Shown here: positions 7,500 to 55,590 of the stretch, piece by piece
Numbering within the stretch: position 1 is the stretch's first letter
Layout of the letters: every line of letters begins with the position of its first letter
Assembly: GCF_024972735.1 (NCBI RefSeq)
Contig: NZ_CP087723.1
Span: 2,294,001-2,358,000 of the forward strand
Direction: 5' to 3'
Length of the DNA stretch: 64,000 bases
Source: Halalkaliarchaeum sp. AArc-CO
Lineage (GTDB): Archaea; Halobacteriota; Halobacteria; Halobacteriales; Haloferacaceae
Notes under the pieces: generated by a model
Seen by the model: the letters and a program-made list of their open reading frames with translations, nothing else
What the model was told of the DNA's origin: nothing
The model's database searches: none
Made by a program: the position numbers and the translations under genes

Positions 7500-7690
7500 C
7501 GAGGAACAGGTACGTGAAACAGGGGACCGTTCGAACAGACCCCTCGAGATGCAGTGCGTACAGCATCCAACTCTCCTCCTCGTCGTTGTACCGGGAGCGA
7601 GGGCCGAAGGCCCGAGTTATCGGCTTTGTCCCTCGACCGTTTTCACCGAGCGGTCCTCCGAAAGCGAACCCGAGGCAGAAAAAGGTCGTT
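7500..7690 (+). ncRNA. Candidate small RNA (structured intergenic region)
   Basis: The stretch after the TATA-like box has pairing potential: CTCGAGG (7498-7504) with CCTCGAG (7542-7548), and a strong hairpin GGGCC-GAAG-GGCCC-like at about 7601-7613 (GGGCCGAAGGCCC). GCAGTGC is present twice as a direct repeat (7492-7498 and 7551-7557). It ends near an A-rich/T-rich tract at 7678-7684. A 66-codon frame exists but shows no family resemblance or start context. I cannot assign it to SRP RNA, RNase P RNA or another known class. It may equally be only the 3' trailer of mbf1 read on the other strand. Confidence 0.25.
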
Positions 7691-8301: not shown

Positions 8302-8904
8302 TCACAGATCGGACCACGCGCCGTAGAACCGCTGGAGCGCGGTCAGGTGGCCGACCACCGCGAACGCGACGAGTAGCAGTTCGACGACAGTAAAGCCCGC
8401 GGCCAGTTCGCCGGGGACCACCGCCGCAACGACGCCGACGACGCCCACGAGCGCGAGGCGGTCCGCCCGTCCGAGGGCGCCGCCGTACTCCCGACCGAGG
8501 CCGACCGCCTGGATCTGGGTGCCGAGATACGAGGTCATCAACACCCCGGTGACAGCCAGAAAGCCCAGCAGATACGCACCCGTTCCCGCCGCGAGTCCGG
8601 CGATGATCGCGATGTCGGCGTAGCGGTCCAGCACGTGATCCAGCAGGTCGCCCGCCGCCGACGCCTGGTTTTGACGGCGAGCGAGCGCGCCGTCGACCAG
8701 ATCGAGCCAACCGTTCGCGAACACCAGCACCGCGCCGACGACGAACCAAACTGGCTCCGCGATCGCGAACGCGCCGCCGGCCGCAAGCGCGCTGCCGAAC
8801 GCCAGCACGCTCACCCCGTCGGGGGAGAGGCCGACCGCGTCGGCGGCGTCGACGAACGGCCTCAAGGCCCTGTCGGCGATCGGGCGGAGCCGATCCAGCG
8901 TCAC
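8302..8904 (-). CDS. CDP-alcohol phosphatidyltransferase family membrane protein
   Basis: A 200-residue integral membrane enzyme with the CDP-alcohol phosphotransferase signature DG-x2-AR-x8-G-x3-D-x3-D, read as DGALARRQNQASAAGDLLDH followed by VLD. Several hydrophobic helices flank it. Enzymes of this family join CDP-archaeol to polar alcohols such as glycerol phosphate or inositol phosphate; which acceptor is used cannot be read from sequence. The GTG start at 8904 overlaps the stop of the upstream kinase gene in the string GTGA, which implies translational coupling. The arginine-rich in-frame sequence upstream is a shadow of the kinase gene and was excluded. Confidence 0.82.
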   Translation of the reverse strand: MTLDRLRPIADRALRPFVDAADAVGLSPDGVSVLAFGSALAAGGAFAIAEPVWFVVGAVLVFANGWLDLVDGALARRQNQASAAGDLLDHVLDRYADIAIIAGLAAGTGAYLLGFLAVTGVLMTSYLGTQIQAVGLGREYGGALGRADRLALVGVVGVVAAVVPGELAAGFTVVELLLVAFAVVGHLTALQRFYGAWSDL

Positions 8905-45045: not shown

Positions 45046-45137
45046 GGGTCGGGCGTACACAGCCGGTGGACGCTATTAACAGTTGTTGGCGATTCGAAGT
45101 CGACAGTGAAAAATGGGCGTCGGGGGTACTGCCGGCC

Positions 45138-53373: not shown

Positions 53374-53473
53374 ATTCGGGAGCCGGACCGACGAGCTGTC
53401 GGTCGATCGGTCGACAGCGAGCCCACCTGTTCGATCCGGGGGAGCTAAGTTGGACTGCGTTGACATCAAAACG

Positions 53474-54457
53474 ATGGTCGACGCCCGGGAGCTCCTGAAT
53501 CACACGCTAGACGTCGTCTCCGTCCTCGACGAGGACGGAACTGTGCTCTACGAGACCCCGTCGGTAGCGCACCTGCTCGGCTACGAGCACGAAACGCTGG
53601 TCGGCGAGACCATCTTCGAGTACATCCACCCCGAGGACAGGGACCTGGTCGCCGAACTGTTCCAGGAAATCAAAGAACGGCCGGAAGACGACCACGAGCG
53701 CGTCGAGTTCCGGATGCGACACGCAGACGGTGCCTGGGTGTGGGTCGAGTCGATCGGCGCACCCCGTCCGGAGCCGGAGTCAACGCACGTCGTTGTAAGC
53801 ACTCGCGACGTCACCGAACGAAAGCGCAAGGAGCGGCGCCTCGAGAAGTTCTCCGGGATCGTGTCCCACGACCTCCGCAATCCGCTGAACGTGGCCGAAG
53901 GTCGACTGGCGCTGGCGATGGAGGAGTGTGACAGCGAACACCTCGAACACGTCCAGCGAGCACTCGACCGAATGGAACACCTGATCGACGACACACTCGC
54001 GCTCGCTCGTCAGGGCCGGACTGCCGCTGATCCCGAACCCGTCGCGCTCCCGGCACTGATCGACCGCTGCTGGCAGATGGTCGACACGGAAGCTGCCACC
54101 TTACGGCAAGAAGTGGACGGCTCCGTCCGCGGGGATCCGGAGTCGCTCAAACAGCTGTTCGAGAACCTGATCCGGAACGCAATCAACCACGGTGGCGACG
54201 GGGTCACCGTCCGAGTAGGGCGGATCGACGACACTGGACTGTTTTTCGAAGACGACGGTCCCGGGATCCCCGAACCCGTCCGCGATCGTGTCACCGAACC
54301 GGGGTACACGACGACGTCGGACGGGACCGGGTTCGGGCTCGCGATCGTCGAGGAAATCGTCGAGGGGCACGGATGGAGCCTCTCGATCGCGGAAAGCGAT
54401 ATGGGCGACACCGGCGCCCGGTTCGAGATGAGGGGCGTCGAGTTCGTCCGAGACTGA
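53474..54457 (+). CDS. PAS-domain histidine kinase (orphan)
   Basis: A 327-residue kinase. An N-terminal PAS domain (about 5-115: DVVSVLDEDGTVLYETPSVAHLLGY, the PAS core) is followed by a PAC-like segment. The HisKA H-box SGIVSHDLRNPLN carries H132. The ATPase has N-box LIRNAINHG, G1 FEDDGPGIP and G2 GTGFGLAIVEEIVEGHG. No transmembrane helix, so it is cytosolic. No response regulator is adjacent. ATG at 53474 is chosen over TTG eight codons upstream. Confidence 0.88.
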   Translation: MVDARELLNHTLDVVSVLDEDGTVLYETPSVAHLLGYEHETLVGETIFEYIHPEDRDLVAELFQEIKERPEDDHERVEFRMRHADGAWVWVESIGAPRPEPESTHVVVSTRDVTERKRKERRLEKFSGIVSHDLRNPLNVAEGRLALAMEECDSEHLEHVQRALDRMEHLIDDTLALARQGRTAADPEPVALPALIDRCWQMVDTEAATLRQEVDGSVRGDPESLKQLFENLIRNAINHGGDGVTVRVGRIDDTGLFFEDDGPGIPEPVRDRVTEPGYTTTSDGTGFGLAIVEEIVEGHGWSLSIAESDMGDTGARFEMRGVEFVRD

Positions 54458-54465
54458 ACCCCCGT

Positions 54466-54582
54466 TATCAGTTGTTGGCAATGTGATTTACTTTAGTTAG
54501 CTCGGAACGCGTAAACTGGCGTTCCGAACTCGATTACCGCGGATTCGTATATAAACCTGAGTCATATTGCCAACTACTGTTA
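54466..54582. repeat. Inverted-repeat element, MITE-like, in convergent gap
   Basis: A 17-bp terminal inverted repeat (left 54466-54482, right 54566-54582; 15 of 17 matching) frames 83 nt of AT-rich DNA. An inner 9-bp perfect inverted repeat TCGGAACGC/GCGTTCCGA (54502-54510 and 54519-54527) extends imperfectly to 12 bp. The right arm covers the stop codon of sppA (TTA at 54580-54582). The arrangement suggests a miniature inverted-repeat element or a bidirectional terminator. An 11-nt match to the left arm (CAGTTGTTGGC) is also found at 45080-45090. Confidence 0.5.
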
Positions 54583-55590
54583 TAGTCGGAGTTCCGGCGA
54601 CTCCTCCCCGACGATCCGGTCGGCGATACCTGCACCCAGCGCGTAGGCGACACTTCGGGCGCCGATGCCGATCCGTTCGGGGAGCGACCGCTGCGGTTCG
54701 AACGGCTGGACGCGCGCCTCCGGGACGTCGATCAGTTCCTCGACGTGATCGCGGACGTCCTCGCGGGTCCCCAGTTCGTCGACGAGTCCGAGTTCGTGGG
54801 CCTCCTCGCCCAGATACACCCGCGCTTCGGTCTCCCGAACGAACTCCGGATCAAGATCACGTCCCTCGGCGACTCGCTCTACGAAGCTGTCGTAGAAGTC
54901 GTCGGTGAGTCCCTGGAGATACTCCCGCTCGTCGTCGTCCATTTCCTTGAGCAACGTGCCGGCGTCCTTGAACTTCCCGGCGGCGAACCGCTCGTAGGAG
55001 AGCCCGACCTTCTCCGCCAGTTCGGCCGCGTTCACCCGAGAGCTTATGACCCCGATCGAGCCGACGAGGCTGGCGTCCCTGGCCCACAGTTCGTCACAGC
55101 CCGACGCGATCCAGTAACCCCCCGAAGCGCAGACGTCGGTAGCGTACGCGACGGTCGGCCCCTCGAACTCCATCGCCGCCCGGCGGATGTCGTCGCTGGG
55201 CAGGACCTCGCCTCCGGGAGTGTTCAGCTCCAGCATCAACGCGTCGACGGCGTCGTCGGCGTCGGCGAGTTCGATCTGTTCGACGATGTCGTCGGCGGGC
55301 GTCCCCATCCCCCGGGCGACAGGGTTCGGGTTGCCGCCGTCGCGGGTGATCGGGCCGTCGACGCTCACCTCCGCGACGTTGTAATCGGCGATCGTCGACC
55401 GGACGACCATCGCCGCGATCCGGAGCAGGATCAACGCGAGCACGATCGTGAGCACGACACCGCCGAGATCGACCAGCGATTCCACGAACCAGACGAAGAC
55501 AGTGTACCCGATCGCGACTGCGGCGGCGGCGACCACCACGAACGCGAGGAGGCCGACGATCGACCGGGTCCTGGGAGTCGTTCGAACCAT
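54580..55590 (-). CDS. sppA: Signal peptide peptidase SppA-like membrane protease
   Basis: A 336-residue protein with an N-terminal helix pair (about 10-60), then a serine-protease-type SppA domain: VSVDGPITRDGGN, DALMLELNTPGGEVLPSDD, TVAYATDVCASGGYWIASGCDEL (S nucleophile region), DASLVGSIGVISSRV and, after it, GKFKDAGTLLKEM with the likely general-base lysine. It cuts leftover signal peptides in the membrane. Its stop codon overlaps the right arm of the inverted-repeat element. Convergent with the histidine kinase gene. Confidence 0.88.
   Translation of the reverse strand: MVRTTPRTRSIVGLLAFVVVAAAAVAIGYTVFVWFVESLVDLGGVVLTIVLALILLRIAAMVVRSTIADYNVAEVSVDGPITRDGGNPNPVARGMGTPADDIVEQIELADADDAVDALMLELNTPGGEVLPSDDIRRAAMEFEGPTVAYATDVCASGGYWIASGCDELWARDASLVGSIGVISSRVNAAELAEKVGLSYERFAAGKFKDAGTLLKEMDDDEREYLQGLTDDFYDSFVERVAEGRDLDPEFVRETEARVYLGEEAHELGLVDELGTREDVRDHVEELIDVPEARVQPFEPQRSLPERIGIGARSVAYALGAGIADRIVGEESPELRL

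Follow-up and report, generated by a model that had tools for sequence, protein, structure and literature searches.

We found that the inverted-repeat element at 54469..54579 (+ strand) is very probably a MITE, a short non-coding element whose transposase is supplied in trans by a larger element that shares its ends. The analysis covered a 64,000-nucleotide stretch of DNA, called the window here, which corresponds to C2:2294001-2358000 of a source genome of 3.18 Mb in two contigs. The first-pass annotation had suggested either a MITE or a bidirectional terminator, and the former suggestion is borne out by seven copies in the source genome, target duplications at all seven, three sites that are empty in a congener, the lack of any ORF longer than 22 aa inside the element, and ends held in common with a transposase-bearing element. 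A transposase recognising its ends is almost certainly what moves the MITE, most likely that of a transposon (HRAMP transposon) carrying a gene cassette that resembles HRAMP, a haloarchaeal CRISPR derivative with no array. As an element the MITE is of an ordinary kind; the surprise is its likely parent.

The MITE is 111 bp long and has a G+C content of 44%, compared with 66% in the window. Its longest wholly internal ORF is 22 aa, and a transposase gene is therefore absent from it. It is bounded by a left terminal inverted repeat, CAGTTGTTGGCAAT (54469..54482, + strand), and a right one at 54566..54579 that reads CAGTAGTTGGCAAT on the - strand, and it is flanked by the target-site duplication TTAT at 54465..54468 and 54580..54583. 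A repeat search extended the terminal inverted repeat to 21 nt at 86% (54466-54486 / 54562-54582), and within 1 kb of surrounding sequence the highest-scoring inverted repeat of 21 nt reached 18/21, compared with 14-16 for 12 Markov shuffles. The arms described earlier, 17 bp long with 15/17 matches, are present, as is the 9-bp inner repeat, which lies inside a repeat found by the same search at 54499-54510 / 54519-54530 (92%). The borders first proposed, 54466-54582, do enclose the element, but their outer three bases on each side are part of the 4-bp target duplication. Similarly, the element had been said to end on the sppA stop codon; the stop (TAA on the - strand) is indeed formed by the first three bases of the right TTAT, but it belongs to the duplication, and the element proper ends at 54579.

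The interior contains a central palindrome (TCGGAACGC / GCGTTCCGA, 8-nt spacer; 54502..54527), conserved in relatives mainly by sequence, and an A+T-rich subterminal box, GTATATAAAC (54547..54556). Judged by eye, the box lies near the spacing of TGAATAA at the transposon ends and may be a TATA-box-like signal on the - strand. The left neighbour of the MITE is a PAS-histidine kinase gene (53450..54457, + strand) and its right neighbour is sppA, encoding a signal peptide peptidase of family S49 (54580..55590, - strand).

A search of the source genome recovered seven full copies on its two contigs, in addition to shorter matches, and relatives were found in other genomes. Five of the seven are identical across all 111 bp, including one on the 167-kb contig C1, and the other two are at 77% and 81%. 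The target-site duplication that the first-pass annotation proposed to look for was present as a perfect 4-bp repeat at every copy (TTAT at four, including the one at sppA, TTAA at two and ATAA at one). A long ORF ends within the duplication at two of the seven copies, namely sppA (336 aa) and a 204-aa ORF at the copy in L046. TA-centred 4-mers are uncommon in the window, beginning at 1.45% of its positions, which makes stop codons natural targets. The target being NTAN, and the duplicated TTAT here containing the stop codon of sppA, the element comes to end on that codon. We infer that the sppA stop codon would have been struck because NTAN is scarce in G+C-rich DNA and is supplied by stop codons, and that the duplication would have restored the stop codon and left sppA intact. 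An insertion may thus end on a stop codon harmlessly.

The partial copy of the left arm reported at 45080 is real, consisting of CAGTTGTTGGCGAT after TTAA (45076..45093, + strand), but it is a single end and no full copy. It has one mismatch to the 14-bp end, and approximately one such 14-mer is expected by chance at the size of the source genome (by arithmetic), so that it may be a remnant of the MITE family or a chance match. Unpaired ends with TTAA beside CAGTTGTTGGC... were seen both here and at G000:C2:1087563-1087576; these are perhaps deletion remnants.

We then compared the insertion sites with a congener (G004), whose SppA is 93% identical. The element is absent beside sppA in this genome, where the site reads CCCCGTTACAGCCGGAG, compared with CCCCGTTAT + element + TTATAGTCGGAG in the window. 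Only about 8 bp of the left flank could be compared, because the kinase gene is also absent in the congener; the small region at 53450-54457 has therefore been changed by more than the MITE. For each of the six other copies the two flanks were joined and compared with the congener; two of these joined sequences matched across the junction without the element (83% and 88%), three gave one-sided matches and one gave no match. The presence/absence comparison therefore yielded empty sites at three of the seven positions, and the element, far from being a sole copy fully conserved with its flanking genes, has seven copies at home.

These results bear directly on the second suggestion, that the element terminates transcription in both directions between the converging kinase and sppA genes, which we consider very improbable. 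The element does sit in the convergent gap and is predicted to form a strong RNA fold (-46.3 kcal/mol, z -7.0, on the + strand; z -5.7 on the - strand), but this fold is explained by the terminal repeats. Moreover, the element is not conserved with the flanking genes, as the congener retains sppA without it, and identical copies with target duplications lie at unrelated places. No terminator-like site (a stem plus a T run) was found in 54300-54800 by a scan that is not designed for archaeal terminators. The element could nevertheless have a secondary terminator effect.

Evidence on the parent of the MITE came from its ends. The exact 14-bp end occurs in the source genome at the seven MITEs and at three other places, of which one is unpaired and two bound a 9,603-bp segment (C2:2963495-2973097; L048 3496-13098) with the same 4-bp flank on both sides. 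The first 27 bp of the MITE match the left end of this 9.6-kb transposon, and with it that of one HRAMP-transposon subfamily, at 96%, and the match of the MITE left end to the other end of the transposon covers 17 bp. The right end is shared with transposon right ends over 14-16 bp only (14 bp at 93% with the 9.6-kb transposon, and 16/16 bp with a relative, L148), and beyond the ends no common interior was found between the MITE and the transposons. The three HRAMP-like genes lie beside the left end of the 9.6-kb segment, and its other cargo comprises an Rce1-like protease, a beta-lactamase-fold protein and an RNA-guided TnpB. An empty site for this transposon was not recovered in the congener, where the right flank matched alone and the left flank had a partial match elsewhere.

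The transposase of the 9.6-kb segment is split over two frames by a frameshift, and its intact relatives are 618 aa long. The ISH3 model of NCBIfam, NF033541, was the best model for this protein (56.5 bits) and for two others (90.2 and 131.1 bits), although none of the three reached its curated cut-off of 225 bits; we therefore term them ISH3-like only. DDE_Tnp_1 (PF01609, cut-off 23) was found in the intact transposases of L147 and L163 (34.0 and 37.5 bits), and the frameshifted protein had no Pfam match. In addition to their scores, the elements described here differ from the ISH3 family in having 618-aa transposases and lengths of about 4-10 kb with cargo.

ISH3-like transposases are widespread, with matches in 124 of 170 genomes (E<=1e-5), including one more in the source genome, and the congener contains MITE relatives but yielded no close transposase or HRAMP match. 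Both observations would suit a MITE driven by a transposase outside the HRAMP-transposon family, for example that of an ordinary ISH3-type element. We regard such a driver as unlikely, as the exact 14-bp end is restricted in the source genome to the seven MITEs, both ends of the 9.6-kb transposon and one lone end, and as the left-end match extends across 27 bp. Under the preferred reading, the HRAMP-transposon transposase, or an intact relative, would bind the shared ends and excise the MITE, which would then be inserted at NTAN with duplication of 4 bp. The only close transposase in the source genome is the frameshifted one. The sequence comparisons support past transposition of the MITE, and its present mobility is putative.

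The three genes beside the transposon left end fit descriptions of HRAMP, which is reported in the excerpted text of PMC8730458 to consist of divergent homologues of Cas5 and Cas7 accompanied by nucleases and other, uncharacterised proteins, and in that of PMC12669027 to be array-less. Gene 1 is remotely similar to Csm3/Cas7, as is gene 3 to Cmr3, with no curated match. Csm3 models in PADLOC matched gene 1 of L048 (7.8e-5), with no such match for L156, and Cmr3 models matched gene 3 in all four proteins tested (best 1.5e-6). Of 15 gene 1 proteins, 10 matched Pfam RAMPs when E values up to 1 were admitted, the best being 1.6e-4. The top Foldseek matches of a low-confidence structure model of gene 1 (pLDDT 54.7) were chains from CRISPR effector complexes of types III, VII and IV, the best at E 3.9e-3 and none at E<=0.001. 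Gene 2 was assigned no identity, its structure model (pLDDT 44.5) being useless, and PDB sequence searches with profiles of the three cassette genes gave nothing credible.

In four loci spanning 11-17 kb, no repeat set of CRISPR form was seen. L163 has, just upstream of a winged-helix gene (8513-8607), three degenerate palindromic repeats of 22 nt (77%), separated by 11- and 18-nt gaps, which are perhaps operators. A non-coding guide RNA upstream of gene 1 was considered and dropped, since the stretch conserved between L147 and L163 looks, by eye, like the end of a short reading frame. Directly upstream of the Cas7-like gene of L147 is a tRNA-like stretch (7550-7644), called tRNA-Leu by ARAGORN; Rfam gave no match in L147, and nothing comparable was found at the equivalent place in five other loci scanned.

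Four HRAMP transposons were complete among the 13 entries tested, with both ends and identical flanks (9,603, 7,292, 3,880 and 6,341 bp), completeness being defined by a right end with at most two mismatches and an identical flank. The right end of L083, with four mismatches, was excluded by this definition, and the other entries had no convincing right end within the stretch. The transposase of the 3,880-bp element is decayed. One Haloferax genome carries two complete transposons, L147 4834-12125 (7,292 bp) and L163 5033-11373 (6,341 bp), with transposases only 34% identical; gene 1 of the latter is 81% identical to that of the source genome. The flanks of the 7,292-bp element join into one continuous frame, which we identified by eye as a putative intein-containing DNA-methyltransferase gene, and a search of 14 other Haloferax genomes found no homologue of this insertion site.

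We surveyed the cassette more widely and found matches in 47 genomes, of which 42 were examined in longer stretches; five genomes with fragments only, further fragments within the 42 genomes and the fragment L248 were left out, and L086 and L084 were added from a separate search. The loci fell into two clades. The transposon clade comprises 21 loci with gene 1 at 69-100% identity to the source genome, among them L048, L147, L148 and L163, together with L084, which has a gene 3 fragment only, giving 22; the sister clade comprises 26 loci with gene 1 at 53-60% identity (L156-L159, L226-L247). A gene 1 tree, which leaves out L225, L248 and L084, separated the two with support 100/100. Of the 21 transposon-clade loci with gene 3 (L225 is without it), 16 have the transposon left end at a distance of 72-127 bp from where the gene 3 match stops, the end at L151 being weak (0.66, against a shuffle maximum of 0.62), and the left end was absent at L153, L154, L155, L220 and L224. 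It was found in none of the 26 sister-clade loci. In the tree, 15 loci with the end and five without it were intermixed on one side.

The clades also differed in gene content. A tblastn search with sister-clade queries (E<=1e-5, Pfam families confirmed), in which RNase_H_2-type and HNH genes were sought, found neither in any of the 22 transposon-clade loci, compared with RNase_H_2-type genes in 23/26, HNH genes in 22/26 and at least one of the two in 26/26 sister-clade loci. A small third gene with no family assigned was present in 26/26 sister-clade and 3/22 transposon-clade loci. Absence of a gene is weak evidence in the short stretches L154 (3.7 kb), L086 (4.3 kb), L231 (6.5 kb) and L084 (8.4 kb). 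Within the stretches examined, 10/22 transposon-clade loci had a transposase match, in one case a distant one, compared with 0/26 in the sister clade. As only 10 of the 22 have such a match, many of these loci are probably remnants.

The cassette resembles HRAMP as described in the excerpted sources in having a Cas7-like, a Cas5/Cmr3-like and a third conserved protein, with no CRISPR-like array seen, and the transposon-clade cassettes differ in lying at a transposon end and in being without the HNH and RNase_H_2-type genes of the sister clade. The HRAMP descriptions, as excerpted from PMC8730458 and PMC12669027, include nucleases and do not mention carriage on transposons, and this link was not reported in the titles or abstract openings covered, the founding 2019 HRAMP paper falling outside this coverage. 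Tn7-like CASTs, in the same excerpts of PMC8730458, are similar in carrying nuclease-free CRISPR-like effector genes on a transposon, whereas the HRAMP transposons have an ISH3-like DDE transposase, a 4-bp duplication and no array seen, and we do not class them as CASTs. A Tn7-type gene was not found among the HRAMP-transposon cargo proteins scanned. The transposon-clade HRAMP has either lost these nuclease partners or never had them, just as CASTs are without theirs, a likeness of pattern and not of mechanism.

We tentatively raise the possibility, unlikely as we judge it, that the HRAMP-transposon family is an archaeal, non-Tn7 counterpart of CRISPR-associated transposons, with an effector that works for the benefit of the transposon itself, through RNA-directed target choice or suppression of rivals. 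A nuclease-free HRAMP effector (the Cas7-like, Cas5-like and third proteins) would then have been captured and kept beside one transposon end across transposases only 34% identical, and the 111-bp MITE would be the minimal DNA substrate of that machine. The diverse NTAN sites do not point to guided insertion, and a guide was not found; that HRAMP is plain cargo, used for instance against rival elements, is no less likely. The association of one HRAMP clade with transposon ends, and without those nuclease genes, makes HRAMP function directly testable.

Turning to known small elements, a haloarchaeal case of MITEs is described in the Haloquadratum paper (PMC3119063). As given in excerpts of that paper, the MITEs of Haloquadratum walsbyi are short, share terminal repeats with transposons, often have target duplications and depend on a transposase in trans; the 111-bp element, compared by description only, is like them in the first three traits and probably in the last. 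The same excerpts describe SMR-A small mobile repeats, which are haloarchaeal, about 110 bp long and bounded by inverted terminal repeats, produce no target duplication, have ends unrelated to known transposons, and are present in 109 and 128 copies in two strains, in three families. The 111-bp element is like these in length class, inverted terminal repeats and host, and unlike them in duplicating NTAN and in having ends in common with a transposon. Identity with the Haloquadratum SMR-A was judged improbable, as the genome G098, whose genus label is that of a Haloquadratum MAG, has just five matches to its own copy, which is too few. Taken alone, the MITE is one more family and a marker of recent transposition.

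Relatives of the MITE were detected at E<=0.01 in 21 of the 170 genomes of the family, near full length in nine only and elsewhere as short matches to one end or to part of the element; up to five candidates were scored per genome, making copy numbers lower bounds. Perfect duplications were present at 30 of 47 loci across genomes, all 30 of the form NTAN (oriented by script); among the remaining 17 are copies that have decayed and a few whose boundaries were wrongly placed. The interior was recognisable in 29 copies from several genera, with a mean column identity of 76%, and the central palindrome was kept in 81% of cells, compared with 25-50% when slid.

Such conservation could mean that the palindrome and the A+T box make the MITE a mobile regulatory or RNA-producing element, in which a TATA-like box close to the right end would direct transcription that begins shortly before the central hairpin and exits through the left end. 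We find this unlikely. Covariation in the palindrome is weak, with 15 to 49 of 500 shuffles reaching the observed values over five measures, many of the copies in one genome have a changed A+T box, and a protein-binding dyad would explain the palindrome equally well. Because covariation is weak, we describe the interior as a conserved dyad and make no claim of RNA; a conserved RNA was likewise rejected after an Rfam search, which gave one chance-level match (mir-23, E 0.72).

Eight plasmid records, seven of them haloarchaeal by name, contain only short matches, to the left end or elsewhere in the element, of which they cover 22-32%. A truncated MITE-like copy was seen near position 4022 of L086, between the HRAMP genes and a remnant of the HRAMP-transposon transposase. 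The genome G099 (loci L187, L190, L192, L196 and L198-L211) yielded 40 matches from 40 candidates scored, some covering the whole MITE and some part of it, and is a good place to study the family.
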